Part shown: positions 15,104-41,261 of the stretch, piece after piece
Position numbering within the stretch: the first letter of the stretch is position 1
Layout: each line of letters opens with the position of its first letter
Assembly: GCA_033064195.1 (NCBI GenBank)
Contig: JARBJD010000122.1
Span: 62,001 to 126,000, forward strand
Direction: 5' to 3'
DNA: 64,000 nucleotides
From: Blattamonas nauphoetae
Taxonomy: Eukaryota; Preaxostyla; Oxymonadida
The notes under the pieces: model-generated
The model's database searches: none
Told to the model about the DNA's origin: nothing
Seen by the model: only the letters and a program-made list of their open reading frames with translations
Made by a program: the position numbers and the translations under genes

Positions 15104-16561
15104 TTACTCTCCGTATCTGCAGAACGCCTTCTCCCCGTTCTTCTCGCAAGGGAAGAAGCCCCCGATGATCTCGTCCTCCAGGTCTTCGTCCACTTCCAAG
15201 CACACTCCATACTTGTTGCACACAACTTGCTTCCCAACTTTCACGGCGACCTTGCCCACTTTCTTCGCTGTCTTCTTCAGCCACTTCCCGAACCCTTGGT
15301 CCAGCTGCTCCTCTTCTTCTTCCAGGCACACTCCCGTCTTCGCGCAGAGTGCTGTTTTGCCAACCTGCACAACTGCCTTCCCCAGCTTCTTCAGGAAGCC
15401 CTCGTCAAGCTCCTCGTCGTCAACTTCGTATTCGTCCGTGATCAGGCAGACTCCCGTCTTGTCGCACACAACTTTCTTCACAATCTTCTTCGTCACTTTC
15501 TTCAGCGACTTCCCGATGCCCTCGTCAAGCTCCTCGTCTTGCTCGTTCACTTCCAGGCACACTCCGTACTTGTTGCACACAACTTGCTTCCCAACCTTCA
15601 CGGCGACCTTCCCCACTTTCTTCGCTGTCTTCTTCAGCCACTTCCCGAACCCTTGGTCCAGCTGTTCCTCTTCCATCTCGAGGCACACTCCCGTCTTCGT
15701 GCACACAACTGTCTTCGCAACCTTCCCCCCAATCTTCACTATCTTCTTCCCGATCTTCCCAAGCTTCTTCCAGAACCCTTGGTCCATCATTTCCTCCTCG
15801 TCTTCAAGGCACACTCCCGTCTTCGCGCACGCCACGTGCTTCCCAACCTTCACAACAACCTTCCCGATCTTCTTGAAGATCTTCTTCAGTTTCAGTTGGT
15901 CCTCTTCATCGAACAGCTCTTCTTCGGCTTCCATCGTGAACTGGTCCAGCTCTTCGTCGTCTTCTTCCAGGCACACTCCGTATCGGTTGCACACAACTCC
16001 CTTTCCAACCTTGACAGCGGCCTTCCCGACTTTCTTGGCAATCTTTCCCAGTTTCTTCCAGAAGCTCTGGTCCATCTCTTCGTCAACAATCATCTCCAGA
16101 TTGTCAACCAGCTCGTCCTGCACAAGCTCGTCGATCGCATCGTCGTCTTCTTCCAGGCACACTCCATATTCGTTGCAAATCACTTGCTTCCCAGCCTTCA
16201 CAATCACTTTTCCTGCTTGTTTCAAGAATTTCCCCAACTTCAGTTCATCTTCCTCGTCAATTTCGGCTTCCATTGTGAACTGGTCCAGGTCTTCGTCTTC
16301 CTCTTCCAGGCACACTCCGTATCGGTTGCACACAACGCCCTTTCCAACCTTGACAGCGGCCTTCCCGATCTTCTTGGCGACCTTTCCCAGTTTCTTCCAG
16401 AAGCTTTGGTCAATGTCAGAGTCTTCCGCTGCGATTGGCTCGAACTGTGTTTTGATGGCTGGTTTATATGGTTTCGTGGGCCTCTTCCATGGTTTCGGGA
16501 CCTTCTTGAAAGGAGGGCGAAGATACTGGTCACTGTCTCTGGCAAAACTCAGCGAAAACAA
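15104..16561 (-). CDS. Secreted tandem-repeat cationic protein, antimicrobial-precursor-like, left copy
   Basis: A long frame of 485 residues built from nine repeats. Each repeat is a Lys-rich amphipathic helix (pattern F-W-K-K-L-G-K-x-A-K-K-x-G-K), then V-x-V-G-K and a C-x5-C loop such as C-N-R-Y-G-V-C. Strongly acidic linkers of Glu and Asp separate the repeats. A cleavable signal peptide is expected from the right copy. This order (signal, acidic spacer, cationic helix, disulfide loop) is what multi-peptide antimicrobial precursors look like, and the C-terminal Cys loop recalls the Rana box of frog peptides. Function is inferred from sequence character; no homolog was searched. Compared with the right copy it looks nearly whole, with about one break. 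Long open frames on the opposite strand are composition artefacts. Confidence 0.7.
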   Translation of the reverse strand: MFSLSFARDSDQYLRPPFKKVPKPWKRPTKPYKPAIKTQFEPIAAEDSDIDQSFWKKLGKVAKKIGKAAVKVGKGVVCNRYGVCLEEEDEDLDQFTMEAEIDEEDELKLGKFLKQAGKVIVKAGKQVICNEYGVCLEEDDDAIDELVQDELVDNLEMIVDEEMDQSFWKKLGKIAKKVGKAAVKVGKGVVCNRYGVCLEEDDEELDQFTMEAEEELFDEEDQLKLKKIFKKIGKVVVKVGKHVACAKTGVCLEDEEEMMDQGFWKKLGKIGKKIVKIGGKVAKTVVCTKTGVCLEMEEEQLDQGFGKWLKKTAKKVGKVAVKVGKQVVCNKYGVCLEVNEQDEELDEGIGKSLKKVTKKIVKKVVCDKTGVCLITDEYEVDDEELDEGFLKKLGKAVVQVGKTALCAKTGVCLEEEEEQLDQGFGKWLKKTAKKVGKVAVKVGKQVVCNKYGVCLEVDEDLEDEIIGGFFPCEKNGEKAFCRYGE

Positions 16562-16672
16562 AGTTGCAAGTGCGAATAACGAACATGATTTCAGATAATC
16601 TGACCGAGATGCGCTATTTTCTGATCCCGCCCCGATTCACCATGTTGGGATGATCTTCCATTCGCCACAATT

Positions 16673-17360
16673 TCAGTGGAAATCTGTGTTGAAGAAGGAT
16701 ATATCCTGAAACATGTCAGAGGAAGTGTGTTTACGGCATCTGCAATACAATGAGGAACAAAATGAGAGTCCTGCTTCGTTTTTGAAGAGAGTGGCGAACG
16801 ACGAGATGAGTCGGGCTTTCTGTGGTTTCAAAGGATGCAGTGGAGGCGTAAAGAATACTGTGGAATGTTTGGACGAAGCCTGCTGATCACCAAACAAGAT
16901 CTCTGGAGAGGTCCAATCTTCGATCGAGCGCAAGGAATGGCCAGCAATGGATGAATCACTGGATCTGAAAAGTCGGAGCAGACACGAAACAACACTTGGA
17001 TGGCTCTGAAAACGCAAGAAGAGGTGTGCTATCCATGTCGTCGACGAGAAAAGTGATGAGTTTCGTGATGGATGAAATGTTGATATTAGGAAAGAGTACG
17101 GGCTCCAAACGCACTGTGGACAAACAGGAGGAACAGTTTGAGAGAAGATAGCGGCAGAAGTGGCACAGAACGACACTGTCGTTGAGACAGACGAGGAGAG
17201 AAGATGATGTCGTTCTTGTCTGTCTGGAGAAGATTGCTGATTGTGGACGCATCTGTGCAAAGCATCCGAGCAAAACAAGCGCTGGCACAAGAGATGACGT
17301 GGAAAGGGGTTGAGAGTGGCATCCATCGGAGCTTGTTGCGGATTGCTTTCGGTGAGCTGA
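16673..17360 (-). other. Conserved 3' module downstream of the ARM gene (left)
   Basis: This stretch is duplicated as 39007-39695. Several frames are open but none is clearly favoured, and no ATG-led gene with a known domain is seen. Parts of it (for example the I-S-S-I-T-K-L-I-T-F-L reading) resemble, at protein level, one reading of the 333-bp repeat that follows other ARM genes in this window. It may be a decayed downstream exon or an untranslated region common to the family. Confidence 0.4.
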
Positions 17361-18437
17361 TCAGGTATATCTCTCCATATTTGCTCCCAGAGATCGCGAG
17401 AGCGCCCGACTTTCTTCAGCAATACCCGAGCTAAAGTGTTCGTACCTGCTTCTCATCATCTGCTCCAGTGCGTCTTCGAGGTTCTCCGAAAACAGAGCTT
17501 GCATCATCCGTTTCCCACATTCCATCATTTCCGGGCTTTTGTTTGTCCATTCTTCGAGGAAATATGTCAGGTTGCCGAGAGCAGAGCGGATCTGAGTTTG
17601 GTCTTCAACGAACGAGAGACAACTTGAGAATGCCATCACAACTGGAGAAGCCAGAACAAACTCCAATGTAGGACCATGAAATGGGCCGATTCCAATGATC
17701 TGGCACAATGCATCCATGAACGAAGATGAAAAGTGTTCACTGAGAAGGGGCTGATTTGAAGTCAGAAAAGCCAGAAAGTGAGACGATGGAAGAACGACCT
17801 TCTGAAAGATCATTTCACGATGGCTGTGTTCGTCGACTGCTGAAGTGATGCCAATTCGCCTGAGAGTAAATGGTTCTGCGAGGGCGAGGAAACACTTGAT
17901 GACTCTCACGAGGTAGGTCATCATCGGTTCATTGCGAGAGATTGGCAGTGTTTGAGGTCGAACAGTTTCGAACATATTGGCGACGAGATCTGACTCCACG
18001 AGCCGATAAAGAATTTGTGGTGATGACTGTTTCGTTACTGCCAGCAGGAATGTCAACGCTGCGAACTTCAATGTCGAGTGGCGAGATGAAAAGAGAGTGG
18101 CAATGCTCTCAACAAAACCAGAAGGCGAGTCGGGCGAAGAGGGAACGAGGTCTGTCACCAGTTTGGTCACAAAAAGTTCTTCATCGTCCAATTTTGGTCG
18201 GAGACTCCCCAAAAACAAGGCGGCTCTGTATTCAAGAGTGTTGTCAAAGGGAAACCCCTCCTTCACGAGCGCGACAAGCGAACAGTAAATTCGAGATTTG
18301 TCCTCAAACGACAAAAGTGAGTTCGGGTCGAAATGCAAGAAAGGTTCTTCTTCTGGCTTGACAATTGAATGTGATTCCTGTGGACAATTCAGAGAGGCAG
18401 CAATGGATGAGCTTAATGAATGTTCTTTTGATAACAT
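17361..18437 (-). CDS. ARM/HEAT-like family protein (arm B copy)
   Basis: A 358-residue protein. I place the start at 18437, where it aligns with the ATGs of the paralogs at 37930 and 35705 and sits about 15 bases after the shared motif TGGGATGATC; the frame is open further upstream without homology. Landmarks: E-P-F-L-x-F-D-P-N-S-L-L-S-F-E-D-K-S-R at about residue 30, S-L-V-A-L-V-K-E-G-F-P-F-D near 55, T-D-L-V-P-S-S near 95, M-I-F-Q-K-V-V-L-P-S-S-H-F near 225, and G-K-R-M-M-Q-A-L-F-S-E near 325. Probably a helical-repeat scaffold. The right copy at 37930-39006 has exactly the same length and over 95 percent identical residues. Confidence 0.82.
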   Translation of the reverse strand: MLSKEHSLSSSIAASLNCPQESHSIVKPEEEPFLHFDPNSLLSFEDKSRIYCSLVALVKEGFPFDNTLEYRAALFLGSLRPKLDDEELFVTKLVTDLVPSSPDSPSGFVESIATLFSSRHSTLKFAALTFLLAVTKQSSPQILYRLVESDLVANMFETVRPQTLPISRNEPMMTYLVRVIKCFLALAEPFTLRRIGITSAVDEHSHREMIFQKVVLPSSHFLAFLTSNQPLLSEHFSSSFMDALCQIIGIGPFHGPTLEFVLASPVVMAFSSCLSFVEDQTQIRSALGNLTYFLEEWTNKSPEMMECGKRMMQALFSENLEDALEQMMRSRYEHFSSGIAEESRALSRSLGANMERYT

Positions 18438-18539
18438 TGATACCGAGACGAGGATCATCCCATTCGTCCGCATTTTCACTTTCACAACAAACCATCGGCA
18501 CAATTCACAAATTGTAGTCGGAATACCATCAAGCTGAAA

Positions 18540-19035
18540 TGCAGAATGAAGTCAAACATCGTTGACGAGGTTTAAGTTCCTGCCTGGCAATCGCATCTTC
18601 GCTCAGAGTTTCACACTCTGCACCAACATTCACGCATCCAGCTTGTTCTCCTTCCGACAGCAAACAACAAAGCAAGTGCAGCCAGAGCATTCAAAATGTG
18701 GACGAGTCACACTTCGGAGTCTGAATGACAGAAAAGAGAGGCGACAATTCGCACCCATCTCGATGACATGAGAACGACATGTGTGTTCGGAAATGGCATG
18801 TGGAAACAGCGGGACGAGAGTGGTGCCCGTCTAATGTCGACATGGCTCAGTCCAGCGAAAGAGAAACAGGGATTGTGAGATGAAAGAAAGAGAGAAGAAT
18901 CTGTGGATGCCACAAAAACGGAAATCACAAAAAAGAAGGACACACCTCAACCAAAGTGTGGATGGCTTGCAACAATCTGAATGAGGAGTGCATCTCATTT
19001 TGACGGAAAAAGGGGATGTGATTCTGAGAGGACCC
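18540..19035 (-). promoter_or_regulatory. Shared upstream module of ARM-family genes (left)
   Basis: Lies immediately upstream of the ARM gene at 18437-17361 (minus strand). Parts recur upstream of other ARM genes in the same orientation relative to the gene: 31768-32200 before the gene at 32336, and 37552-37800 before the gene at 37930. It includes a GCCAGGCAGGAAC element about 150 bases before the start. Short frames here differ between copies and are not supported as genes. The conserved position suggests promoter or 5' untranslated sequence duplicated along with the gene. Confidence 0.6.
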
Positions 19036-19167
19036 AAAAGTCGATGTTGGGAAGGATAACACAGTCACTACGGAAAGAGGGAGAATAAATGAAAAGGGGA
19101 GGAGATTCAGCAACTCAGCGGCAGCCATTCGAGAGAGGCGGGTTCGAAGTGCACTTTGAGATGCAAT

Positions 19168-19980
19168 CTATCTCAACTTCTTCACATTCGATCCCAGCAA
19201 TTGCGAGAAAGAAACACATCGGGAAGCAACTTCGACGCCAATGTCTTCGCTCTTTTCGTGCATCAGCGTCTGTTCGAGTGTGTCTTCGAGGCCTTCAGAG
19301 AACAGTGCTTGCAGCATCCGTTTCCCAGATTGGGCCACTTCTGCGCTTTCGTCATTCCATTCACGGAACGAATGCTGGAGGATGAAGATGGTGAGATTGA
19401 GAGATTTACTGTCTTCGACGAAAGAGAGGCAACTTGAGAATGCCATCGCAATCGGAGAGGTGACAATATAATCCAATGTGGGACCATGAAACAGGCCAAT
19501 TCGAATGAGAGTTTTCAATAGAGTCATGAAGGTTTTGAACAGCTCTTCTGTGAGGATGTGCCGTTTTTTGTTCAGAAATCTCACAGATTGATGAGAGGGC
19601 CGATTATCGCTTCATATCCTGAAATTGGCATTGAATGATGTTGGATAGCCGCCAAGACATTGCTGATGAGGCATGAATCCACGAGACGATATCGAATTTC
19701 GTCGGATAAACGCACGATTGTTTGTTTTAAGAACAAGATCGCTGCTGCCACCACTGTCGAGTGAGGAGATGATAACAGAGTGGTAACGCTCTCAATAAAG
19801 TCGTATGGCCATCCGGCTGAAGAGGGAACGAGGTGATTGACGAGGCTCCGTGCAAAACTTTGTTCGTCCCAATCTGGTTCAAGACTCTTCAAAAAGTGGG
19901 CAGCTCTGGCTTGAAGGGCATTGTCAAAATGGTATTCCTCCTTCACATGGGCAACAAGCGAATTATAAACGGCCGCTGGC
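19168..19980 (-). pseudogene. ARM/HEAT-like family pseudogene
   Basis: Two overlapping frames cover most of an ARM-family protein. The N-terminal one (19980-19581) begins abruptly at V-Y-N-S-L-V-A-H-V-K-E, missing the first 50 or so family residues. The C-terminal one (19584-19168) resumes after an internal loss of about 45 residues with a change of frame and carries F-H-G-P-T-L-D-Y, L-S-F-V-E-D and G-K-R-M-L-Q-A-L-F-S-E. It directly abuts the 3' end of the split ARM gene at 19993, so the 5' truncation looks like a deletion joining two tandem family members. Confidence 0.75.
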
Positions 19981-20764
19981 TCTTGTCTGTTTCTATCCAC
20001 GCTGTTGACTGTTCATGCCCAGCAAGCTATTCAGTTGAGTCGATTCGGAAACTATCCATTTTCCGAAAGTGGTCGCTGCGTCGTTTTGCAGCTTTTCCTC
20101 CATCCCATCTTCGATGTCCTCCATTCTCAGACATCGAAAGATTTTTGTCCACGATCGACAGAGATCTCTGATTTTTTTGTTCCAATTCCGCTGGATACCG
20201 ACCATTGAAGACAGAAAAATCCAGATTGAGTGATCAGTTTCGAAGAATGTGAGACAACTTGTGATCGTGAGAAAGATTGGGATATGAAGAACGAAATCCA
20301 TTGTTGGTTGATAGGAAGAAGAAATTCGGGCAAGATCCGATGATCCGTGACCCTCCTCGGTTTAAGGGTTCTGATCGAATGACCAATTTTCCGAATGACT
20401 TGATCGTCACATCTTCATTGTCGTCTATCTTCTATATAGGCATGGGCAGCGGTCGGTCCGACTGCTCGTCGACCGACCGACTGCTTTTCCTGACGATCGT
20501 ACCCATTTCTCACAATTTGTGTCTCTGATTCCTTGAGATTGATTTGTAAAACTAGATTAAAGAACAGTGAATATGTGCTTGTGTGTGGGAAGAAAAATCA
20601 ACGGCAAATAGTTGAGTTTGTCCATGAAAACAGAGAAAAGGTGCTGGACAGTGAATCAAAAAGAAACAACAGCCTACGTCGTTTTGAGAGATTGTGAGGT
20701 GGATGAGTGCAGTCTGTTATGTCGGTGTTTGCGTATCGAGCCGTTTGAAGCAGTGGAAGAAGCG

Positions 20765-23229: not shown

Positions 23230-23453
23230 TCAAAAAAGTCGCCGACTGTTTTATTTTTAGGGACTGGACTCGATGCTTTCAGACCGACCACTGCCCATGC
23301 CTACTTCTATACCAAAATCTTTGGTGTTAATTAGAATTTCGAGACTGTTTGTTTCCGGGATGTCACCATTGTGCCGAGATCAAGGACCTTTATTTGTTTC
23401 GACACTTCACAAAGATCCTTTATTCCCATGTTTCTTTTGAGAATTCACTAATA

Positions 23454-23497: not shown

Positions 23498-24501
23498 GAC
23501 CAGATATTGTGAAAAAGCGACGGGATAAAGGATCGGAGTGAAGTGTGGATCAACTTGGAAAGATACGACTTCTATACATTTTTCGCACCTCTACCATTTT
23601 ATTAAACTCAGTTTGATTCAAATTAGGAAAAGTCACTCTACCCATACTCTGATGAGGGTCACGGATCATCGGATTTTACCGAAATTCGGAGGAAGTGGGC
23701 GAGGAGGAGCAGAAAATTCAAGGATTGGTCACCATCGACGATCGAATAGCGATTCACGCACAAATGCCTTACATACTTCTCCGAAGGTGCAAGAACTTGC
23801 TGAAAAACAGTCTCGCGAACGTCTGGTTGCTCATCGCCAGCTTTAACTTCGAGTTGTGAGAGGGCATCCGGGGTTGAGAGCCAGAGAAAAAAGGTGATGG
23901 ATGTCATGAGACTAGCGTGGATATCGACTGATTCTGCAAGGGAAAGAGATAGTGGATTGAGGGTGTTGATGAGTCGAGGGATCAGATCAGCCTTGACGAG
24001 AGTAAGTCGGCCTTTTGGTGAACGGGTCCTGATCAAAGTTTTCAGCATCTTCATTGCGGCTGTGGTGATAACTTTGTTGGCAGTAGAAATTATTACTAAA
24101 ACGGATTGTACGAATTCTGTCAAAGATTCATCAGCGGTCCGTCCAAGGCTGCGGAGAAAAACATCTGCTGATTTTCGACTCCATGGAGTCACAGTTTCGA
24201 GCAGTTTCACAGCCTTTGTTTCCAGAGAGACATCCAATGCAGGCTTACACTTCAAAGTGGCAACCAGAGATCGAAAGACAACTGCTTGTTCGTGTTCAGA
24301 TTTAGGATAGTTTTCTGTCCAATTCATGAGAAGAGAACAGTCTGGAGAATGTCAAAAGCAGTGTGAAGAGATACCAGGGCAAGGAGAATCAATAGAGATT
24401 GATTTGTTCGTGATTACCGTCGTCATTCCTTCTGATTCAGTGGAAAATCACTCGTGGTTTGATCTTCACCATCACAACTCTAACCGGGACTATTGATCAA
24501 G

Positions 24502-26779: not shown

Positions 26780-29700
26780 TTAAGTGCTCAAATCACGGTC
26801 ATCACTTGAAATGAAATGTCTGTCAAAAAGACGAGTCAGCTGGCGGACAGAGATTGCCTGACGGGCCAGATCCTTTCCACGGAGCCCGTCAAAAATAACA
26901 CCCAGCCGCTGGAGGATCACACGGTGCTCCAGTTTGTGCTGGTCGAGCTGTTCGTTTGTGATTGAAGTCTCTTTCGCTGCTTTCGGCTTCGAATCTTGTG
27001 TTTCGCTTTTGGACTGTCTCTGCAAGTCGTCGATCCGTGCGTGCATGCTCTTCTCCTCCTCTCGGAAGGATCGTTTGGTCATCTTCATCAGCTCTTCCAT
27101 TGCGGCCTCCTGCATTCCCGCGCTTTCGTGTTGGTTGTGCATCCTGATGACGTTGTTGGCTGAGTCAATCACTTTCTCTCGCAAACCATCAATCGTCTTG
27201 TTCTTCGTTTTCATCGCATCAACAAACCGAACATAATTCGAATCGTCGATGTCGAACGAGATCAGTTCGTTGAGTCGACGATCCTCCATTCCCATTCTCT
27301 TGAACGTGATGAAGGGCGTCATCATAAAGAATTGGACAAGGAGATAGATGACGCTCATGATGACGACAGCGATGAGCAGCTGTGTCATGAACACATCTTT
27401 CATCGCAATCACATCCGAGCACATCCGGCCAACCATGTTCACTGTGCAGTCTCGAAGATCGTTCCGAAGCGCCGAGTTCATAAAGCGGAAGATTGGGTGT
27501 GTCTCGTTGAAGATCGACTCGTCCTCCTCCTTCAGAAACTCCCCGTACTGCAGAAAGCGAGAAATCAGTGCTTGGAGTCCAGACACAGTGTCGTGCGTCT
27601 CGAACAGCCGCGCGTGGATGTCCTCTTCCTCACAGGCTGTTCGATCCGACATGAAACAATCGTCTTGGTGCAACAGTTCGCGGACGTTGAACTCGTTTTC
27701 GTATCGTGTGACCAGTCTCTCGTCAATCAGCTTGTCATCTGTGATGGTTTCAGCTGTCTTCCCAAAGTGTGTGATGAGGCTGGTTTTTCTGAAGTAATCG
27801 AGCGAGCCTGTCAAGAGTTCCATCGTCTTCGCCTTCGTCTGACCCAAATGAGAGGAATCGTTCCAAACTGGATTTGTGCATGTTGGGTGAGTGATCAGCT
27901 TGGGGAACTTGAGAAACGGCATGTCGAACGCCATGCTCAGCAAGAAGAAGTTGGAGTTGGTGAGGCAGATGGGGCGGATGGCAGCGAGGAGGATGTTGTC
28001 CACGCTGCTTGTGAAGGTGAAGAAGGAGATGTAGTTGGGGAGCATGTAGCCGCACAGAACAGCAAGAACGGCAACCACATGCATGACCATCATCACCTTC
28101 GTGTGCACAGGGATCCCGCTGTGGATCGTTTTGTGCATGTTGTGAAGGTCTTCCACAGAGTTCTCAAAGGCCTCTTCCCATTCAGCGTCGTCTCGTTTCG
28201 TCACGTGATCGTCGTCCTCGTCTCTCTGTGTGAGGAGCGACCGCTCTGTGAACAACCCAAAGCCGAAATCGTGCTTTGTCTCGACTGTCGCATTTGCGTG
28301 CAAATTGTGAGACAGCTGCGACATCCCAACATTCATTGGTGGCGTCATTTGTGGGCTCGTGTTCGGATCGTACAGAACCTGCGTGTGGTTGCCTGGGCTG
28401 AACAGCTGATGCATACTCTGCGTGTGACTCGCGTAGACATCTGAAGCGAATTGGGAGGACTCCATCTTCGACCCGCCGAGCTTGCGGCGAGGGAGAAGAG
28501 CGATGGGGAGGGGGTCAGCGTCTTCGGTGTGGGGTTCGTTCGCTTCATCGAGAGTCTTTGGCTCGAGACCTTCTGACGACCGATCTGTGTTGGTGTTCTT
28601 TCTGTCCGACGACGACGCGTTGATCTCGTCCTGTCGGGGAGATGCTTCAACCTTCTCGAAAGTCGTCTCGTCTTGCTCGTTTTCCAGAAGTTCCGACTTG
28701 TCTGCTGCGAGATCTTGATCCTCCTCTTCCTCCTCCTCTTCTTCTTCTTCTTCCACTTCCTGCTCCATCTCTTCCTCTTCTTCGTTCAGTTGATTGGTGA
28801 CGTTGTCGCTTCCATCCTCCGTCAACAATCGAGCCACGCTTTGGAAGCTACTTTTCTTCACTTCGAGGCTTCTTCGCAGGATCTCCTTTCTGTCCTTCGT
28901 CACTTGAAGGGATATGAAGCCATACGAACACACCAACGAGATCAGCACAATCGCAGTTGGAAAGCCGACAATCATGTTGAACAGAGTTCGCATTCGAGAG
29001 CTCGCTGAACTCGCGTTGTCAGCATATGCAATGAGTGCTCGCTTCCCAGCCTCGAAGAGCGGATGGTACGAGTTGTATTGGATGGAGACCATCCGCGCGT
29101 GGAGGGACGGGAACTGTGTCGGCAGATCTGTCATCACTCCAACTTGCGTGGCCAGCTGAGCCATGTCAGCCATCAAATTCAAGAACGACTTTTCGGTGAC
29201 AGTGACATCGTACGTCGTGTTTGTTGTGCCGTTGAAGAACGCAGCAGCAACAGGGATGTCAACCAGCTCCCACACATCGTTCTCCACGTTGCTTTCGTAC
29301 ACCTGCTTCATCAGTTTGGTGAGTGACCCCCCGTAATAAGAGAAGTATGGCTGGAGCTCGACGACCGTGTCGATGGTCTGGTCTGTGTCTGCAATCTTCG
29401 TCCAATCCCAAAGGAATTCATGGATGAGGAACTGCAGTCCGATGATGCTGATCCGACATCCCGAGATCACAATTGTGCCGACATCGCGGATGTGTCCCAT
29501 CGCCTCAATGAACTGCCCGGACACGATGTTCGTCACGATGTATGCAGCGACGAAGCCGATGACACCAATGATGTGCCCAGCCGAGATCGACCCAAAGACA
29601 GTGTTGATCAGCGTCATGCCCTTCGCCTTGCTCGTCCCAAGAATGTCGTCGATTCCGGTCTCAGCTTGCGTCTTCTTCTTTTTCTTCTTCTTTCGAACTG

Positions 29701-31357
29701 ACACGCGGCTTCCTGTGTCGCCTCGTGGGTCTGTCTTGATTGTGCCTGTCATCGTTCCTCCATAATCTTCTGTTGTGTCCTCCTCGATTTGATCCGCCTT
29801 GGCCAGCACATAATCAGCCATGTCATCGTCGCGGATGATCTTCTGAAGCATCACTCCATACGAGCGGAGCACAGCCACGTTGTTTGGATTCTGGGCGAGA
29901 AGCTGTTCGTAGCTTTTTTTGGATTCTGCTTCGGCTTTCACGATCAGCGTGAGCTGCTTTTGGAGAAGCGAGAAGTTGGGCTTTTGTTTGCTCAGATTGT
30001 CGTAGAATTCGATTTGGGCGTCGCGGGCGTCTTCTCTGTCATTTTCGGCCTGTTCGAGCTGCGCCTTCAGGTTCATCTCCATCGCTTCCCCACCACCGCT
30101 CCCATTCTCAGCTGATTCGCCCTTCATGACGCAATGAATCAGAAATCGAGTTGCCAGCCCCGGTCTCGCCTTTTTGCACTGTCTGAGGATGACTTGTGCC
30201 TTGATCCGGTTCTTCGTGACCGATTGCAGAAACAGCGCGTAATTCGCGAGGAGAATCTTGTCGTCCTTGTGGCGCAGAATTGCTGTTGAATATATTCCAT
30301 CTGCGTACTCCATCAGCGCGCGAGTTCGGAGTTTCTTGACGAGGACGAAGCGGACAGAACGCTCGACCGAGACTTTCCCGACGTGCTGCATCAGCTTTTC
30401 TATGCCTTCCTCAGAGCCCATATCGAACTTTGGAAGCACTTCGTTGTCTTTTGAGATTGTTATGGCCCAGGTGCGTCGCTCTTTCATCTTCAGAAGATGC
30501 AGAAAGAGAATCGACAGCCCGATACCGCCTCCGATCCCCACAACGGCCATGACTATGGTTCCGATAATTGTTCCCGTCCCGGAGTCAATCAGGAAGCCAA
30601 TTTCCAGGCATAGTCGCAGCGTTCCGTACACGGTGAAGAGAAGGACGATAAGGAAGTTGGAGAAGAGAGAGTAGAATGGTTGGGTCATGATCACTGCAAG
30701 AACGAATCCGGCAGCTGTTCCTACACTCACCACTGCACGCCAGAACGCCCAATCCACCAACAGCCGTTGGCAAAAGATGAGTCCGAAGACAAACACAATA
30801 ATGGCTGTTTGGAACGCTCCCGACGGCGCAGCGAAATATCCTCCGCGTTTTGGGTTGCTCCGAAAAATAAAGAAATGGTACATGGCCACCATAACGAAAT
30901 AAAGCACCAGAAATACGATAGCGATGACTGCGCCAACTGTACTCAACATGTCGTCTGAGCCGAAACAGGTTGCGCCCGAGGAACGGTAGAGGAGACTGGA
31001 CTCGGGAGTCAGCCGGTAACAGTCAAACGCATTGATACTCATGTTGACAATGGGAACAACAAGAATTTGAAAAAAGACGGTGAACGTAATCTTTGTGACG
31101 GCCAAAATCCATGGTTGGTGGGTAAGGAGCCATTGGTACAGTGGTGATACCAAAATAAGGACGAGGACTAGAATTAGGATAAGGGCGAGGAGAGCGATCG
31201 GAACGACGCCGTAGATTGTCTTCAGCGCCGACCCAAGAGATGCAAAATTAACAAAGCCAAGTGCATGTCCTATCATAGTTGGCATTTTTGTCGTCGTGTT
31301 GATTGAAAAGAAAGATAGTGTGATCAGCTCCAGAAATAGAAAGCAATAACCGATCAT
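26780..31357 (-). CDS. TmcB-like multi-spanning membrane protein
   Basis: A 1525-residue intronless frame with about seven hydrophobic segments in the first 300 residues, a conserved cytoplasmic block (Y-A-D-G-I-Y-S-T-A-I-L and L-A-N-Y-A-L-F-L-Q near 360-380), and a helical region with E-S-K-K-S-Y-E-Q-L-L-A-Q-N-P-N-N near 490. Four more membrane segments follow (around 590, 620, 825 and 1110), separated by a very acidic stretch near 880-900, and the last spans lie near 1370. This matches the TmcB/TmcC-like family abundant in amoebae and trichomonads, whose members often end in adenylate/guanylate cyclase domains; none is present here. Sensing or channel-like roles are inferred. ATG at 31357 is an upper bound, and M-P-T-M-I-G-H (31285) fits the family better. 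A separate frame at 31565-31350 reads like the missing family N-terminus (L-F-P-L-Y-E-N-V), but I found no splice pair joining the frames. Confidence 0.83.
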   Translation of the reverse strand: MIGYCFLFLELITLSFFSINTTTKMPTMIGHALGFVNFASLGSALKTIYGVVPIALLALILILVLVLILVSPLYQWLLTHQPWILAVTKITFTVFFQILVVPIVNMSINAFDCYRLTPESSLLYRSSGATCFGSDDMLSTVGAVIAIVFLVLYFVMVAMYHFFIFRSNPKRGGYFAAPSGAFQTAIIVFVFGLIFCQRLLVDWAFWRAVVSVGTAAGFVLAVIMTQPFYSLFSNFLIVLLFTVYGTLRLCLEIGFLIDSGTGTIIGTIVMAVVGIGGGIGLSILFLHLLKMKERRTWAITISKDNEVLPKFDMGSEEGIEKLMQHVGKVSVERSVRFVLVKKLRTRALMEYADGIYSTAILRHKDDKILLANYALFLQSVTKNRIKAQVILRQCKKARPGLATRFLIHCVMKGESAENGSGGGEAMEMNLKAQLEQAENDREDARDAQIEFYDNLSKQKPNFSLLQKQLTLIVKAEAESKKSYEQLLAQNPNNVAVLRSYGVMLQKIIRDDDMADYVLAKADQIEEDTTEDYGGTMTGTIKTDPRGDTGSRVSVRKKKKKKKTQAETGIDDILGTSKAKGMTLINTVFGSISAGHIIGVIGFVAAYIVTNIVSGQFIEAMGHIRDVGTIVISGCRISIIGLQFLIHEFLWDWTKIADTDQTIDTVVELQPYFSYYGGSLTKLMKQVYESNVENDVWELVDIPVAAAFFNGTTNTTYDVTVTEKSFLNLMADMAQLATQVGVMTDLPTQFPSLHARMVSIQYNSYHPLFEAGKRALIAYADNASSASSRMRTLFNMIVGFPTAIVLISLVCSYGFISLQVTKDRKEILRRSLEVKKSSFQSVARLLTEDGSDNVTNQLNEEEEEMEQEVEEEEEEEEEEEDQDLAADKSELLENEQDETTFEKVEASPRQDEINASSSDRKNTNTDRSSEGLEPKTLDEANEPHTEDADPLPIALLPRRKLGGSKMESSQFASDVYASHTQSMHQLFSPGNHTQVLYDPNTSPQMTPPMNVGMSQLSHNLHANATVETKHDFGFGLFTERSLLTQRDEDDDHVTKRDDAEWEEAFENSVEDLHNMHKTIHSGIPVHTKVMMVMHVVAVLAVLCGYMLPNYISFFTFTSSVDNILLAAIRPICLTNSNFFLLSMAFDMPFLKFPKLITHPTCTNPVWNDSSHLGQTKAKTMELLTGSLDYFRKTSLITHFGKTAETITDDKLIDERLVTRYENEFNVRELLHQDDCFMSDRTACEEEDIHARLFETHDTVSGLQALISRFLQYGEFLKEEDESIFNETHPIFRFMNSALRNDLRDCTVNMVGRMCSDVIAMKDVFMTQLLIAVVIMSVIYLLVQFFMMTPFITFKRMGMEDRRLNELISFDIDDSNYVRFVDAMKTKNKTIDGLREKVIDSANNVIRMHNQHESAGMQEAAMEELMKMTKRSFREEEKSMHARIDDLQRQSKSETQDSKPKAAKETSITNEQLDQHKLEHRVILQRLGVIFDGLRGKDLARQAISVRQLTRLFDRHFISSDDRDLST

Positions 31358-32335: not shown

Positions 32336-33889
32336 ATGGAAGAAGAATCAGAAACTCTGAACAAACCAAATGATACTTGTTTGAATGATTCACGGAAATT
32401 GAATTCAACAGTTGATCTAGAACGTGAACCATTCCTCAATTTCGCTCTCTATTCACATTCGTCATTTGATGAGAAATCAGCGATTTACAATTCGCTTTTG
32501 GCCCTCATTAAAGCTGAACACCCGTTCGATGCTACCCTTCAAGACAGAACTGTTCGATTTCTGAAGGACCTGGAACCAGAGTGGGGCGAAGAAGATCATG
32601 GAGATCAACTCATCCTGGATCTCGTTCACTCTTCAGCTGGATCGCCTTCTGGCTTTATCAACAGCATCGTCATTTTGCTGTCATCTTCCCACTCGACTGT
32701 GATTACAGCAGCATTGTCATTTCTTCGCCACACTTTCGAGAATTCGTCACCCCAAATTCAATATCGTCTCGTGGAGTCAGATCTCGTCACCAAGCTGTTA
32801 ACGACTGTTCAACCTCACACACTGCAAATTTCAGGAAAGCCAGTGATATTCGACAAACTTCTCAGATTCGTCAGAAATTGTGGCGACCTCGCACATCCAT
32901 CACGTCTCATAGTGGTGTCACCAAACCGTCCGGCGTCACCAATCCGGCCTTTTTTCTGTGAGGGACTATTTTGGTCAAACTAAGAACAAAATAAAATTTT
33001 AGCATTATACTCCCACCCGATCCCGAGAAAACCTCAAAATACGTTTTACGTTACGAATGCACACATTTTTTTCAACTTTTTGCGGTCATTTCTCCACAAC
33101 CAGCCATCCGTTTTAAATCAAATAAAAGGCATAATAGTCGGATAGATCTCGACAAAAGATGAACAAAAAATAAAAGGATTTTTTTCCTAAGAATATTTTG
33201 TCGAGAAAAATTTGGGTTTTTTCCGATCTTCCCAAATACGCAGAATTTTTTCTCCAAATTTTTGCAAAAATGTTCGTTTCACCAAAAAAACGTTTTGCGA
33301 AAATTTTCATCGAAATTGATTTACTGGTTGTTGAGATATTGCCGAAACGATGTTTTTCATCGGGCAAAAGGGGGTATTTTGAGGATTTCTCGGGATCGCG
33401 TGGGAGTATAATTCTTAAATTTCAGATTTTTCTTAGTTTGACCGATATTGATTTTTCCAGAAAAAAGGCCGGATTGGTGACATGGGACATATTGGTGACA
33501 CAACTATCAGTGACCTTAGTATCACTGATACAGTCGACGCATTCGATCATTGTGAACTGATCTTTCGGAAGGTCGTGCTTCCATCGTCTCTATTTGTGAT
33601 GGCATTCTCATGTTGTGTCTCGATCGTCGAAAGGGACTATGATCTCTGGGTGTTCTTCGGTGACCTCGACTATTCGCTTCAAGAATGGAAGGTTGAAGGC
33701 CCAGAAGTGACCCAATCTGGGAAACGGATGATGCAAGCTCTGTTTTCGGAAGGCTTCGAAGACATACTCGAACAGACACTGATGCACAACGAGGGAGGTC
33801 ATGGATTCAAAATTGTTGAAGATTGTTACTACATCTCACAATTGTTGGGATTGAATGTGGAATTCACTGAGAGGTTGCGTCACCGATGA
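32336..33889 (+). pseudogene. ARM/HEAT-like gene interrupted by a 597-bp foldback element
   Basis: ATG at 32336, 14 bases after TGGGAAGATC. The first part (32336-32909) reads E-P-F-L-N-F, I-Y-N-S-L-L-A-L-I-K and onward to D-L-A-H-P-S-R-L. After the element the frame resumes at 33510 as S-D-L-S-I-T-D-T-V-D and runs to 33889. Omitting the element and one TCA gives P-S-R-L-S-D-L-S-I-T in frame, matching P-K-S-L-S-S-L-H-I-T of the gene at 35705. The second part lacks about 60 residues of the family between L-P-S-S-L-F and V-M-A-F-S, so the gene was already shortened. As it stands translation ends inside the element. The element contains possible splice acceptors, so removal as an intron cannot be ruled out. 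Confidence 0.8.
32910..33506. mobile_element. 597-bp foldback MITE, superfamily uncertain
   Basis: Flanked by a 3-bp duplication TCA (32907-32909 and 33507-33509). Terminal inverted repeats extend for more than 100 bases, starting TAGTGGTGTCACCAA on the left and TAGTTGTGTCACCAA on the right. They include a second GTCACCAATCCGGCC block and a shared ATTATACTCCCAC block, and similarity continues weakly toward the centre. There is no coding capacity beyond chance frames. TSD length would fit CACTA or PIF/Harbinger, but the tips match neither consensus well. Confidence 0.85.
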
Positions 33890-33915
33890 CTAATCGAACT
33901 GCATCTCTCGACTGA

Positions 33916-34248
33916 CTCCAACTCATTTCTGTGGACTCTCCTCGGATGTTGGGGATGCTGTGATTGCTGGTCCAGACGAACAGATTCTGAGATCGCCTCC
34001 AATCGTCCAGAAATGGTTTACTCTTTTGGGTTGGTCGTTCTCAGCGCGGCTGTCTTTTACTGTCACATCGTCAACCGTCCTCTCTCCACACAATTCATTG
34101 CGTCCCTGAACGATGCGTTGTGACCAGATTATCCATCCCAATCTCGACTTTTGAACCATCTCTGAAGCACATCTCGTTTATCTCGTCGAAATGGGATGCA
34201 CCCCACGTTCCTACCATCATATCGCCATCCGCAATCTGTTTGAAGTGT
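33916..34248 (+). repeat. 333-bp perfect direct repeat, copy 1
   Basis: Identical base for base, as far as I can compare, with 36827-37159. Both copies lie directly downstream of an ARM-family gene on the same strand. Conceptual translations contain stops. It looks like a recently duplicated or converted 3' module. Confidence 0.9.
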
Positions 34249-35570: not shown

Positions 35571-35704
35571 GTTTGTTGCCAGTGAGAATTCATTTCATTC
35601 TTCTCTTAACCTTCATTTCCTTTGTTTGGAGACTTCATTTGTTGTTCAAGTGTTCGTCGGTTTTCCTTTCTGACGACCAATGGGATGATCCTCCTCTCTT
35701 TTCA

Positions 35705-36799
35705 ATGGACAATGAAACACTTTCTTTAAAAGCTTCTAACGATACCTTATCGACTGAATCTCAGAAATCACCTTCAATTATCGTGGTTAACGAAGAACCT
35801 TTCCTGTCTTTCGATCCGAAATCAAAATTGTCGTTTGAAGACAAATCCAGAGTTTACAATTCCTTAGTTGCACTGGTGAAAGCTGCATATCCTTTTGACA
35901 GTGCCCTTCAAGACCGAGCCGCACAATTTCTGAAGTGCCTCGAGCCGAAATGGAGGGATAAGCCAGATCATGCAGACAACCTTGTGACTGACCTCGTTCC
36001 CTCTTCAGACGGATCGCATTCTGGCTTTATCGACAGCATCGTCATTTTGCTGTCATCTCCCCACTCGTCTATAGTTGAGGCAACGATGTCGTTCCTCAAC
36101 AAAACAACAACCCAATCATCGCCTGCAATTCGAAAAGGTCTCGTGGAGTCTGATCTGATCAACAAACTTTTAGCCACTGTTCGACCTCACACACTGCCAC
36201 TTTCAGGAAATGACGAGATATTCAACAATTTGACAAAAATCATCGGTAATAGCATCTATCTCGCATCTCCAAAATCTCTCAGCAGCCTTCACATCACAAC
36301 TTCAGTCGACAAACAATACTATCGTGAAATGATCTTCCAGAAGGTCGTGATCGCATCGGGTCAATTTGTGTCATTTCTGATCTCAAATCGATACTCCCTC
36401 GATGAAGACTTATTATTCTCCTTCATGTCTCTATTAGCAACAGGCCTTCGAATAAGCCTATTTCATCGTCCAACATTAGAGTTTGTTCTCGCATCTCCGA
36501 TTGCGATGACACTGTCAAGTTGTCTCTCGTTCTTCGAAGATGATCATGTTCTCTGGATGACTCTCAACTCCATCCAACATTTACTGAAAGAATGGGAGGA
36601 AGAATGCCTAGAAGTGGTCCAATCTGGGAAACGGATCTTGCACGCTCTTTTCTCGGAAGGCTTCGAAGACACACTCGAACATTTGGTCATGAACGACAAA
36701 GGCGGAGATGATGGTCGCAGTGTTGACGATTATTGTCGCTCGGTCTCCCAAATTCTGGGATCGAATGTGGAAAGACCGCAATGGTTGGATCTCAGGTGA
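35705..36799 (+). CDS. ARM/HEAT-like family protein
   Basis: A 364-residue, uninterrupted family member. ATG at 35705 is 14 bases after TGGGATGATC; the frame is open upstream but unconserved there. Landmarks in order: E-P-F-L-S-F-D-P-K-S, D-K-S-R-V-Y-N-S-L-V-A-L-V-K, R-A-A-Q-F-L-K-C-L-E-P-K-W, T-D-L-V-P-S-S, E-M-I-F-Q-K-V-V, L-R-I-S-L-F-H-R-P-T-L-E-F-V-L-A-S-P, L-S-F-F-E-D-D and G-K-R-I-L-H-A-L-F-S-E-G-F-E-D-T-L-E. It serves as the best reference for the broken paralogs in this window because every conserved block is present. Function unknown, likely a helical scaffold. The 333-bp repeat starts 27 bases after its stop. Confidence 0.82.
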   Translation: MDNETLSLKASNDTLSTESQKSPSIIVVNEEPFLSFDPKSKLSFEDKSRVYNSLVALVKAAYPFDSALQDRAAQFLKCLEPKWRDKPDHADNLVTDLVPSSDGSHSGFIDSIVILLSSPHSSIVEATMSFLNKTTTQSSPAIRKGLVESDLINKLLATVRPHTLPLSGNDEIFNNLTKIIGNSIYLASPKSLSSLHITTSVDKQYYREMIFQKVVIASGQFVSFLISNRYSLDEDLLFSFMSLLATGLRISLFHRPTLEFVLASPIAMTLSSCLSFFEDDHVLWMTLNSIQHLLKEWEEECLEVVQSGKRILHALFSEGFEDTLEHLVMNDKGGDDGRSVDDYCRSVSQILGSNVERPQWLDLR

Positions 36800-36826
36800 C
36801 ACGCCGAAGCCACCTCTCTCGAATGG

Positions 36827-37159
36827 CTCCAACTCATTTCTGTGGACTCTCCTCGGATGTTGGGGATGCTGTGATTGCTGGTCCAGACGAACAGATTCTG
36901 AGATCGCCTCCAATCGTCCAGAAATGGTTTACTCTTTTGGGTTGGTCGTTCTCAGCGCGGCTGTCTTTTACTGTCACATCGTCAACCGTCCTCTCTCCAC
37001 ACAATTCATTGCGTCCCTGAACGATGCGTTGTGACCAGATTATCCATCCCAATCTCGACTTTTGAACCATCTCTGAAGCACATCTCGTTTATCTCGTCGA
37101 AATGGGATGCACCCCACGTTCCTACCATCATATCGCCATCCGCAATCTGTTTGAAGTGT
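36827..37159 (+). repeat. 333-bp perfect direct repeat, copy 2
   Basis: Second copy of 33916-34248. The sequences diverge immediately on both sides of the repeat, which gives sharp borders. Confidence 0.9.
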
Positions 37160-37551
37160 GGTCTCCCTTTTTGGTCTTTATCTGTTTGTAACATCGACAT
37201 TTTCTATGTTTTGGTCTCTTTGTCATCCTCTCCATTTGTCTCGTCTCTTCATCCTCCTTTTCTCTCATTCTCTCTCATTCTCTCCCCAGCCGCTCAAAAC
37301 AGGATTTGGGTCCTTGTTGTGCAAACTGATTTTTTTGTGACGAAGAATCGTTGTTCATCTCCACCTCACAAAACGACGAGTTTGCCCTCCACATTCCGTC
37401 ATTCGTTGAAGTTCAATCGATATCTGGTGGACAATTCTTGATTTGTTCTGCCCGTCCTCTGTTTCAGTGACGCTTTTTCTGGCCTCTCACAACTCGCATA
37501 CTCATCCACTGAACTGGACGATATCACACTTAAATGAATCGAAACTATCAT

Positions 37552-37800
37552 CCCGCTGTTTCCGCATGCCATTTCCGAACACACATGCCGTTCTCATGTC
37601 ATCGAGATGGGTGCGAATTGTCGCCTCTCTTCTTCTGTCATTCAGACTCCGAAGTGTGACTCGTCCACATTTTGAATGCTCTGGCTGCACTTGCTTTGTT
37701 GTTTGCTGTCGGAAGGAGAACAAGCTGGATGCGTGAATGTTGGTGCAGAGTGTGAAACTCTGAGCGAAGATGCGATTGCCAGGCAGGAACTTAAACCTCG
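37552..37800 (+). promoter_or_regulatory. Shared upstream module of ARM-family genes (right)
   Basis: Counterpart of 18570-18815, upstream of the ARM gene at 37930. It contains GCCAGGCAGGAAC near 37778. Confidence 0.6.
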
Positions 37801-37929
37801 TCAACGATGTTTGACTTCATTCTGCATTTCAGCTTGATGGTATTCTGATGAACAATTTGTGAATTGTGCCATTGGTTTGTTGTGGATGTGACAATGCGGA
37901 CGAGTGGGATGATCTTCATCACAGTTTCA

Positions 37930-39006
37930 ATGTCATTAAAAGAACATTCATTAAGCTCATCCTTTGCTGCCTCTCTGAATTGTCCACAGGAATCACATTC
38001 AATTGTCAAGCCAGAAGAAGAACCTTTCTTGAAATTCGACCCGAACTCACTTTTGTCGTTTGAGGACAAATCTCGAGTTTACTGTTCGCTTGTCGCGCTC
38101 GTGAAGGAGGGGTTTCCCTTTGACAACACTCTTCAATACAGAGCCGCCTTGTTTTTGGGGAGTCTCCGACCGAAATGGGACGAAGACGAACTTTTTGTGA
38201 CAAAACTGGTGACAGACCTCGTTCCATCCTCGCCCGACTCGCCTTCTGGTTTTGTTGAGAGCATTGTCACTCTCTTTTCATCTCGCCACTCGACATTGAA
38301 GTTCGCAGCGTTGACATTCCTGCTGGCAGTAACGAAAGAGTCATCGCCACAAATTCTATATCGGCTCGTGGGGGCAGATCTCGTCGCCAATATGTTCGAA
38401 ACTGTTCGACCTCACACACTGCCAATCTCTCGCAATGAACCGATGATGACCTACCTCGTGAGAGTCATCAAGTGTTTCCTCGCCCTCGCAGAACCATTTA
38501 CTCTCAGGCGAATTGGCATCACTTCAGCAGTCGACGAACACAGCCATCGTGAAATGATCTTTCAGAAGGTCGTTCTTCCATCGTCTCACTTTCTGGCTTT
38601 TCTGACTTCAAATCAGCCCCTTCTCAGTGAACACTTTTCATCTTCGTTCATGGATGCATTGTGCCAGATCATTGGAATCGGCCCATTTCACAGTCCAACA
38701 TTGGAGTTTGTTCTGGCTTCTCCAGTTGTGATGGCATTCTCAAGTTGTCTCTCGTTCGTTGAAGACCAAACTCAGATCCGCTCTGCTCTCGGCAACCTGA
38801 CATATTTCCTCGAAGAATGGACAAACAAAAGCCCAGAAATGATGGAATGTGGGAAACGGATGATGCAAGCTCTGTTTTCGGAGAACCTCGAAGACGCACT
38901 GGAGCAGATGATGAGAAGCAGGTACGAACACTTTAGCTCGGGTATTGCTGAAGAAAGTCGGGCGCTCTCGCGATCTCTGGGAGCAAATATGGAGAGATAT
39001 ACCTGA
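37930..39006 (+). CDS. ARM/HEAT-like family protein (arm B' copy)
   Basis: A 358-residue protein, the mirror copy of 18437-17361, with the same length, start context (TGGGATGATC about 15 bases upstream) and stop. Differences are scattered substitutions such as Gly for Glu after R-L-V. Both copies keep an uninterrupted frame, which argues that each is still functional or that the duplication is recent. Confidence 0.82.
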   Translation: MSLKEHSLSSSFAASLNCPQESHSIVKPEEEPFLKFDPNSLLSFEDKSRVYCSLVALVKEGFPFDNTLQYRAALFLGSLRPKWDEDELFVTKLVTDLVPSSPDSPSGFVESIVTLFSSRHSTLKFAALTFLLAVTKESSPQILYRLVGADLVANMFETVRPHTLPISRNEPMMTYLVRVIKCFLALAEPFTLRRIGITSAVDEHSHREMIFQKVVLPSSHFLAFLTSNQPLLSEHFSSSFMDALCQIIGIGPFHSPTLEFVLASPVVMAFSSCLSFVEDQTQIRSALGNLTYFLEEWTNKSPEMMECGKRMMQALFSENLEDALEQMMRSRYEHFSSGIAEESRALSRSLGANMERYT

Positions 39007-39695
39007 TCAGCTCACCGAAAGCAATCCGCAACAAGCTCCGATGGATGCCACTCTCAACCCCTTTCCACGTCATCTCTTGTGCCAGCGCTTGTTTTGCTCG
39101 GATGCTTTGCACAGATGCGTCCACAATCAGCAATCTTCTCCAGACAGACAAGAACGACATCATCTTCTCTCCTCGTCTGTCTCAACGACAGTGTCGTTCT
39201 GTGCCACTTCTGCCGCTATCTTCTCTCAAACTGTTCCTCCTGTTTGTCCACAGTGCGTTTGGAGCCCGTACTCTTTCCTAATATCAACATTTCATCCATC
39301 ACGAAACTCATCACTTTTCTCGTCGACGACATGGATAGCACACCTCTTCTTGCGTTTTCAGAGCCATCCAAGTGTTGTTTCGTGTCTGCTCCGACTTTTT
39401 CAGATCCAGTGATTCATCCATTGCTGGCCATTCCTTGCGCTCGATCGAAGATTGGACCTCTCCAGAGATCTTGTTTGGTGATCAGCAGGCTTCGTCCAAA
39501 CATTCCACAGTATTCTTTACGCCTCCACTGCATCCTTTGAAACCACAGAAAGCCCGACTCATCTCGTCGTTCGCCACTCTCTTCAAAAACGAAGCAGGAC
39601 TCTCATTTTGTTCCTCATTGTATTGCAGATGCCGTAAACACACTTCCTCTGACATGTTTCAGGATATATCCTTCTTCAACACAGATTTCCACTGA
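39007..39695 (+). other. Conserved 3' module downstream of the ARM gene (right)
   Basis: Inverted copy of 16673-17360. Small indels change which frame is open relative to the left copy, which argues against it coding for a protein as it stands. Confidence 0.45.
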
Positions 39696-39781
39696 AATTG
39701 TGGCGAATGGAAGATCATCCCAACATGGTGAATCGGGGCGGGATCAGAAAATAGCGCATCTCGGTCAGATTATCTGAAATC

Positions 39782-41261
39782 ATGTTCGTATTCGCACTTG
39801 CAACTTTGTTTTCGCTGAGTTTTGCCAGAGACAGTGACCAGTATCTTCGCCCTCCTTTCAAGAAGGTCCCGAAACCATGGAAGAGGCCCACGAAACCATA
39901 TAAACCAGCCATCAAAACACAGTTCGAACCAATTGCAGCAGAAGACTCTGACATTGACCAAAGCTTCTGGAAGAAACTGGGAAAGGTCGCCAAGAAGATC
40001 GGGAAGGCCGCCGTGAAGGTTGGAAAGGGCGTTGTGTGCAACCGATACGGAGTGTGCCTGGAAGAGGAAGACGAAGACCTGGACCAGTTCACAATGGAAG
40101 CCGAAATTGACGAGGAAGATGAACTGAAGTTGGGGAAATTCTTGAAACAAGCAGGAAAAGTGATTGTGAAGGCTGGGAAGCAAGTGATTTGCAACGAATA
40201 TGGAGTGTGCCTGGAAGAAGACGACGATGCGATCGACGAGCTTGTGCAGGACGAGCTGGTTGACAATCTGGAGATGATTGTTGACGAAGAGATGGACCAG
40301 AGCTTCTGGAAGAAACTGGGAAAGATTGCCAAGAAAGTCGGGAAGGCCGCTGTCAAGGTTGGAAAGGAGTTGTGTGCAACCGATACGGAGTGTGCCTGGA
40401 AGAAGACGACGAAGAGCTGGACCAGTTCACGATGGAAGCCGAAGAAGAGCTGTTCGATGAAGAGGACCAACTGAAACTGAAGAAGATCTTCAAGAAGATC
40501 GGGAAGGTTGTTGTGAAGGTTGGGAAGCACGTGGCGTGCGCGAAGACGGGAGTGTGCCTTGAAGACGAGGAGGAAATGATGGACCAAGGGTTCTGGAAGA
40601 AGCTTGGGAAGATCGGGAAGAAGATAGTGAAGATTGGGGGAAGGTTGCGAAGACAGTTGTGTGCACGAAGACGGGAGTGTGCCTCGAGATGGAAGAGGAA
40701 CAGCTGGACCAAGGGTTCGGGAAGTGGCTGAAGAAGACAGCGAAGAAAGTGGGGAAGGTCGCCGTGAAGGTTGGGAAGCAAGTTGTGTGCAACAAGTACG
40801 GAGTGTGCCTGGAAGTGAACGAGCAAGACGAGGAGCTTGACGAGGGCATCGGGAAGTCGCTGAAGAAAGTGACGAAGAAGATTGTGAAGAAAGTTGTGTG
40901 CGACAAGACGGGAGTCTGCCTGATCACGGACGAATACGAAGTTGACGACGAGGAGCTTGACGAGGGCTTCCTGAAGAAGCTGGGGAAGGCAGTTGTGCAG
41001 GTTGGCAAAACAGCACTCTGCGCGAAGACGGGAGTGTGCCTGGAAGAAGAAGAGGAGCAGCTGGACCAAGGGTTCGGGAAGTGGCTGAAGAAGACAGCGA
41101 AGAAAGTGGGCAAGGTCGCCGTGAAAGTTGGGAAGCAAGTTGTGTGCAACAAGTATGGAGTGTGCTTGGAAGTGGACGAAGACCTGGAGGACGAGATCAT
41201 CGGGGGCTTCTTCCCTTGCGAGAAGAACGGGGAGAAGGCGTTCTGCAGATACGGAGAGTAA
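39782..41261 (+). pseudogene. Secreted tandem-repeat cationic protein, right copy (broken)
   Basis: Same nine-repeat design as the left copy: Lys-rich amphipathic helices ending in C-x5-C, separated by acidic linkers. Its N-terminus is an obvious 15-residue signal peptide (hydrophobic, ending F-S-L-S-F-A before R-D-S-D). The reading frame has about two breaks. The differences between the copies lie in runs of a single base, so sequencing error is as likely as decay. An antimicrobial-type role is inferred from composition and architecture only. Confidence 0.68.

Follow-up and report, generated by a model that had tools for sequence, protein, structure and literature searches.

We analysed a 64,000-nucleotide window (the whole stretch, positions 62,001 to 126,000 of contig JARBJD010000122.1) from Blattamonas nauphoetae, an oxymonad gut flagellate (Metamonada, Preaxostyla) that is named after its cockroach host. 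The window carries a repeat gene in two copies that lie in mirror order: copy A, from 15104 to about 16586 on the minus strand, and copy B, at 39782-41261 on the plus strand. Each copy encodes nine Lys-rich amphipathic helices, each closed by a C-x5-C motif, with acidic spacers between them and a terminal C-x8-C loop. A sequence-only reading had described this design, headed by a hydrophobic leader, as that of a host-defence polyprotein in an anaerobic gut protist; the source organism agrees with it, and every element of the design is present in the window copies.

Two broken copies of a repeat gene

The same reading had counted about one break in one mirror copy and two in the other, which agrees with our finding of one break for copy A and two for copy B. 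In copy A, a stop-to-stop frame of 510 codons contains nine helix plus C-x5-C modules and a single terminal C-x8-C loop; because the leader start codon is out of phase, the longest open reading frame (ORF) beginning at an ATG has 389 amino acids (aa), no leader and eight helix modules. Copy B has its ATG and leader in frame within a 230-aa ORF; two breaks follow, and then a C-terminal ORF of 190 aa. At each break the copies differ in length by a single base, and their coding parts are otherwise distinguished by five substitutions. The assembly was built from Nanopore and Illumina reads (PMC10703272), so sequencing error and recent decay are both possible.

Decay would make the window copies pseudogenes, with function residing in intact members of the family, an explanation compatible with any of the functions considered below and one that we find possible but rather doubtful. 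It draws on the breaks in both copies, but these are single-base differences between near-identical copies in a part-Nanopore assembly, and the ratio of nonsynonymous to synonymous substitution rates (dN/dS) of the copy A ORF against intact paralogs is still 0.04-0.11.

The Lys/Pro-rich segment after the leader of the window copies (39782-39946, plus strand) resembles a proline-rich cationic peptide, and a six-frame search found no clear match to it elsewhere in the genome. Long antisense ORFs, such as one of 477 aa at 15165-16598 (plus strand), are probably by-products of the Lys and Glu codons of the sense gene.

Table 1. Features of the window, with positions counted from its first nucleotide.
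Feature	Position	Strand
Left arm of inverted duplication, carrying copy A	12869-18733	
Right arm of inverted duplication, carrying copy B	37633-43486	
Copy A, 389-aa ORF starting at first in-frame ATG, with eight modules of helix + C-x5-C, a terminal C-x8-C loop and acidic spacers	15104-16273	-
Copy A, hydrophobic leader and Lys/Pro-rich segment, in the 510-codon frame of the modules, no in-frame start at leader	16421-16579	-
Copy A, module 1 (helix + C-x5-C), upstream of first in-frame ATG	16280-16414	-
Copy A, module 2, net charge +5	16157-16243	-
Copy A, module 3, net charge +9	15971-16069	-
Copy A, module 4, net charge +9	15809-15898	-
Copy A, module 5, net charge +9	15683-15781	-
Copy A, module 6, net charge +9; structure modelled from residue 2 onward	15557-15655	-
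Copy A, module 7, net charge +7	15446-15520	-
Copy A, module 8, net charge +5	15326-15400	-
Copy A, module 9, net charge +9	15200-15298	-
Copy A, terminal C-x8-C loop, weakly similar to first C123 loop	15110-15163	-
Copy B, N-terminal 230-aa ORF: leader, Lys/Pro-rich segment, modules 1, 2 and part of 3, then frame lost	39782-40474	+
Copy B, C-terminal 190-aa ORF: modules 6-9 and terminal loop	40689-41261	+
~365-aa family, copy	17361-18473	-
~365-aa family, copy	19168-20301	-
~365-aa family, copy	23659-24327	-
~365-aa family, copy	32336-33889	+
~365-aa family, copy	35705-36799	+
~365-aa family, copy	37894-39006	+

A modular family in the Blattamonas nauphoetae genome

Searching the genome in six frames (88.3 Mb, 837 contigs; match counts are lower bounds) revealed intact, single-frame paralogs with a like leader on C150, C32 (two), C412, C123 and C322. 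These lend the proposed design further weight, as do paralogs that carry other Cys modules in place of the helices. The proteins have 484 aa as listed (C150, whose leader begins at the second Met), 506 aa (C32, two inverted copies that are 98% identical across 1.65 kb), 440 aa (C412), 678 aa (C123) and about 478 aa counted from the leader Met (C322). Loop-only relatives lie on C189 (BLNAU_19877; BLNAU_19878, split across several frames) and C152 (BLNAU_18916), and these three B. nauphoetae hypothetical proteins, taken from NCBI, are P0001-P0003 in the comparisons, P0001 being BLNAU_19877. Weak matches on C72 and C71 were discarded, as the frames there look unrelated.

The members differ in the Cys modules that they carry. 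C-x5-C and C-x8-C pairs number 8 and 1 in the copy A ORF, 9 and 1 in C150, 10 and 1 in C32, 5 and 1 in C412, 2 and 21 in C123, and 1 and 15 in C322; P0001, P0002 and P0003 have 15, 12 and 11 C-x8-C pairs and no C-x5-C pair. Every Cys in the copy A ORF, C150 and C32 belongs to a C-x5-C pair or to the final C-x8-C pair, and C412 holds four Arg-rich CxCxxCxC units beside its pairs of both kinds. The three module types (helix plus C-x5-C, C-x8-C loop and CxCxxCxC unit) are swapped within one framework. Two module types and a leader of similar kind link the helix and loop subfamilies: a weak match joins the terminal loop found in the helix proteins to the first C123 loop (expectation value (E) 0.003 to 0.024), and the helices of C123 match those of the helix modules (E 5.7e-5 in one genome search, best 8.2e-4 in another). 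BLNAU_19877, BLNAU_18916 and BLNAU_19878, all annotated as hypothetical, resemble the rest of the family in their C-x8-C loops, acidic spacers and, for two of the three, leader, and differ in having no C-x5-C module and weaker charge segregation.

All nine start segments that we listed are hydrophobic over about 15 residues as judged by eye, and residue 15 is Ala in eight of them and Thr in P0003; P0001, with a different start, stands outside the list. Residues 1-51 of that protein (BLNAU_19877) do not resemble the leader of its relatives and are found again, in whole or in part, at C231, C417, C270, C778 and C105; they may be a repeated element fused to the gene or else reflect a wrong gene model.

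This organization is far more than chance. From 52 C-x5-C rows in nine protein pieces we dropped two with fewer than 12 helix residues before the ring (one in copy B, where the reading is out of frame, and a C412 module that a Glu interrupts), and 29 distinct helices remained. The helical moment at 100 degrees exceeded that of 95% of composition shuffles in 28 of them, a C123 helix (p 0.07) being the sole exception, and none of the C-x5-C rows went beyond its shuffles at 170 degrees. Helix modules span about 25-37 residues and carry a net charge of +5 to +12, which is partly by construction, since the nearest acidic residue was taken as the boundary of each module. A test of charge blocks, which is free of this cutting bias, placed six of six helix-bearing proteins beyond all 500 shuffles (the copy A ORF, C150, the plus-strand C32 copy, C412, C123 and C322; the minus-strand C32 copy and copy B lie outside this set). 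Across nine proteins, the start motif [DE]-(x)-G-[hydrophobic] is present at 24 of the 35 helix modules and 45 of the 78 loop modules, and its total of 96, inflated by recent repeat duplication, compares with a shuffle mean of 26 and a maximum of 41 in 300 shuffles. The helices have the cationic, amphipathic character general to antimicrobial precursors, and the C-x8-C loops are of lower charge.

AlphaFold2, run on one module together with seven other window modules, returned a single helix over residues 2-29 of 32 (mean predicted local distance difference test score, pLDDT, 80). The full-length model of P0002 (mean pLDDT 41) places paired strands at many loops, and we drew no fold from it; its strand register would not set the two Cys of a loop directly opposite, so we speak of C-x8-C loops and not of proven hairpins.

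Seven paralog comparisons gave dN/dS values of 0.04-0.28, which are rough because several pairs approach saturation at synonymous sites, and bootstrap limits of the corresponding pN/pS ratios were all below 0.45. C412 entered over its last 225 aligned codons only, as its N-terminal part holds other modules. From these alignments we conclude firmly that the encoded protein is kept by purifying selection on the sense frame.

The searches made revealed no relatives of the family beyond this species. A word-based search of 5.8 billion proteins, in which the candidates sharing most words with the query were scored, gave no match to the C150 protein at E 0.001 among 7998 candidates and none to its C-terminal 47 residues at E 1 (one candidate); the C123 protein recovered three B. 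nauphoetae hypothetical proteins (E 7e-120 to 1e-153) at E up to 0.1 among 7986 candidates. The helix subfamily seems to be absent from the published protein set. In the PDB the copy A ORF had no match, two loops had three weak matches of other kinds (best E 0.04), and a search with one module, at a threshold of E 10, listed just one sequence, cupiennin-1a (E 0.43, not significant). Alignment searches of helix proteins against prokaryote species contigs and viral contigs, and of loops against viral contigs only, found no relative. Across the searches made, the family appears to have no relatives outside B. nauphoetae, 'lineage-specific' holding only at this sensitivity and with the Monocercomonoides and Streblomastix genomes outside the six-frame searches, and no homologue with a known structural or intracellular role emerged. 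Literature searches on antimicrobial peptides in oxymonads, on polyproteins with acidic spacers and on Lys-rich precursors of protists listed nothing that we recognised as this family, most subscription papers being outside their coverage.

Several profile matches to C123 exceeded Pfam whole-protein cut-offs with no single stretch passing (DUF6522, 39.9 bits; Antifungal_pept, 27.1; Phage_head_chap, 26.2), and NCBIfam matches all fell far below their cut-offs. We treated these, together with PHROGs matches, as summed weak repeat scores.

Predicted peptide precursors and competing explanations

Together these features make it probable, in our judgement, that the B. nauphoetae family encodes multi-peptide precursors of cationic, membrane-active and presumably antibacterial peptides, and that the two window loci are damaged or mis-assembled members of this small family, whose intact members lie elsewhere in the genome. 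The case is built on the leader, the charge blocks, the amphipathic phase, the paired Cys, the way in which unlike Cys modules replace one another in one frame, and two chains whose last residue is a ring Cys. We propose that the leader would send the precursor into a secretory or lysosomal route and that the acidic spacers would neutralise the cationic helices and keep it inactive. A protease may then cut near the acidic cluster ahead of a G-[hydrophobic] or other hydrophobic start, freeing many amphipathic helices, each with a predicted seven-residue Cys-Cys ring at its end, along with small C-x8-C loops that may likewise be disulfide-bonded. The freed peptides could permeabilise bacteria in the food vacuole or the gut lumen.

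Known precursors supply parallels for the layout and for the modules separately. In spiders, as one source describes (PMC7889660), cupiennin precursors consist of a signal peptide and cationic peptides parted by anionic linkers, and the complex cupiennin and latarcin precursors resemble the proteins here in joining a leader (judged by eye in our case) and many cationic peptides with anionic linkers in one chain. The B. nauphoetae proteins differ from them in having no Arg-based processing quadruplet (Arg at -1) before the helices, in a segment after the leader that is often basic and not an anionic propeptide, in modules that finish in Cys rings, and in showing no significant sequence similarity. 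Among protists, naegleriapores and Dictyostelium Apl are likewise precursors holding several antimicrobial pore-forming polypeptides (PMC11542183). Their domains are saposin-like. In contrast to these and to amoebapore, none of the six members or pieces scanned here matched a saposin family: neither the copy A ORF nor the first piece of copy B at Pfam E up to 1, nor C123, P0002, C150 or C412 at E up to 0.1, with C32 and C322 outside the scan.

The frog Rana box, to which the C-x5-C loop had been likened, is defined in one paper as a helix and, after it, a two-Cys ring with four or five residues in between (PMC6280737), and brevinins, gaegurins, esculentins and nigrocins share with our modules a cationic amphipathic helix closed by a Cys ring, which is predicted here to have seven residues. 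The likeness holds for shape. As in the Rana box, the second Cys lies at the encoded C-terminus of C123 and C322, whose last module terminates exactly at the second ring Cys; the other modules would depend on trimming. No homology was found, frog sequences being absent from the matches of protein searches (C150 and its C-terminus) and of a PDB search (one module). Frog precursors carry one peptide behind one acidic piece, unlike the up to ten helices per chain here, with Leu-Glu after most. The family is spider-like in layout and frog-like in module shape, and a member of neither group.

A number of observations count against a peptide-weapon precursor. As assembled, neither window copy has both the leader and the full set of modules. 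The strong purifying selection is unlike that on arms-race peptides. Positive charge is carried by 15/15, 9/11 and 5/9 of the distinct C-x8-C loops in the sets compared, and the neutral or negative ones fit a weapon poorly; the terminal loop of the helix proteins has a charge of just 0 to +1, the divergent loop proteins are less cationic, and P0001-P0003 are less charge-segregated, with one of the three (P0002) beyond 500 shuffles. The start motif marks only part of the modules (34 of 36 loops of C123 and C322 versus 11 of 38 in P0001-P0003), leaving a single cleavage rule unproven, and no Arg or dibasic site occurs in the four residues before the C-x5-C helix modules in the rows examined. Of the nine post-leader segments listed, five are basic, unlike the anionic spider propeptide (+5 in copy B, +2 in C412, +4 in C123 and +2 in C322; -3 in P0002 and P0003; in C150 and C32 only 4-5 residues were delimited, so these were not judged). 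Finally, Pfam FhaA_N matches the copy A ORF at E 9.1e-8 (33 bits against a cut-off of 25, with residues 23-78 as the only stretch that passes); the first piece of copy B matches at E 4.5e-4, below the cut-off, with one passing stretch, and C150 at 26.2 bits, above the cut-off, with none. We judged this match, without disproving it, to be an artefact of charged repeats and gave it no weight.

The main rival is an uncut secreted coat, adhesive or coacervate, in which alternating charge blocks and Cys cross-links would form a matrix for attachment or a cyst wall. The intact proteins are net negative (-11 to -59, C150 counted with 18 extra upstream residues), their charge blocks alternate regularly, and the paired Cys could cross-link chains. 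A charge-driven matrix, however, needs neither the amphipathic phase seen in nearly every block nor a start motif common to different module types, and the two chains that stop exactly at a ring Cys and the substitution of modules of differing Cys pattern in one frame also argue against it; we consider it unlikely.

Repeat precursors are also a known route to signalling peptides (PMC5850478), and the proteins could be cut into many copies of a pheromone-like peptide, for which strong purifying selection on a conserved receptor ligand would be fitting. We regard this as improbable: modules within one protein vary in length and sequence, with 29 distinct helices across the family, and they are strongly cationic and amphipathic and stand alongside unlike Cys modules. 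Less probable still is an intracellular binder of polyanions, such as a basic protein for nucleic-acid binding or granule packing, its hydrophobic N-terminus then being no signal peptide. Lys-rich helices do bind nucleic acids or phosphate polymers well, but the listed start segments are uniformly hydrophobic, the regularly paired Cys point to an oxidising compartment, and acidic spacers would oppose polyanion binding. The sequence-only reading is upheld in part: its design stands, and the host-defence role that it assigned is still a prediction.

Duplicated surroundings and biological meaning

Much of the window is covered by large nested inverted duplications that are 92-100% complementary (1668-3902/45604-47838, 12869-18733/37633-43486 and 18734-19015/31762-32043), the pair that carries copies A and B being 97-100% complementary piece by piece. 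The C32 paralogs are likewise an inverted pair, about 62 kb apart, so the gene family occurs twice in mirror duplications. A duplicated gene adjoins both window copies (13124-14776, minus strand; 41589-43160, plus strand), and its minus-strand version has a dual-specificity phosphatase match slightly below the Pfam cut-off (PF00782, E 7.4e-8) and a long Ser/Pro-rich tail. Several copies of a protein family of about 365 aa, some fragmented, lie in the window (Table 1; grouped by eye and partly by sequence comparison), with weak Pfam matches only in the two copies scanned. A 1525-aa protein at 26780-31357 (minus strand) has many transmembrane stretches, as seen by eye, and TmcB-type TPR repeats (PF25474, E 2.6e-19), and 48165-52000 is a tandem duplication with a unit spacing of about 2.0 kb and 77-93% identity.

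The molecular means by which anaerobic gut flagellates coexist with bacteria, feed on them and select among them are, in our judgement, little known. Proposals for Trichomonas name laterally acquired cell-wall enzymes and bacteriocin-like peptides (PMC12612818). The candidate effectors in B. nauphoetae look home-grown and modular. A broader proposal, which we advance tentatively and doubt slightly more than we believe, is that oxymonads, separately from animals, evolved a combinatorial arsenal of antimicrobial polyproteins, shuffling helix-ring, loop and Cys/Arg-rich peptides into one frame of leader and acidic spacers such that one cut chain would yield from ten to more than 20 peptides for digesting prey bacteria or shaping the cockroach gut community. 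As the modules could be made as synthetic peptides, the idea is directly testable. A frog-like helix and Cys ring in a spider-like polyprotein layout, with no detectable homologues, would be a clean case of convergence.

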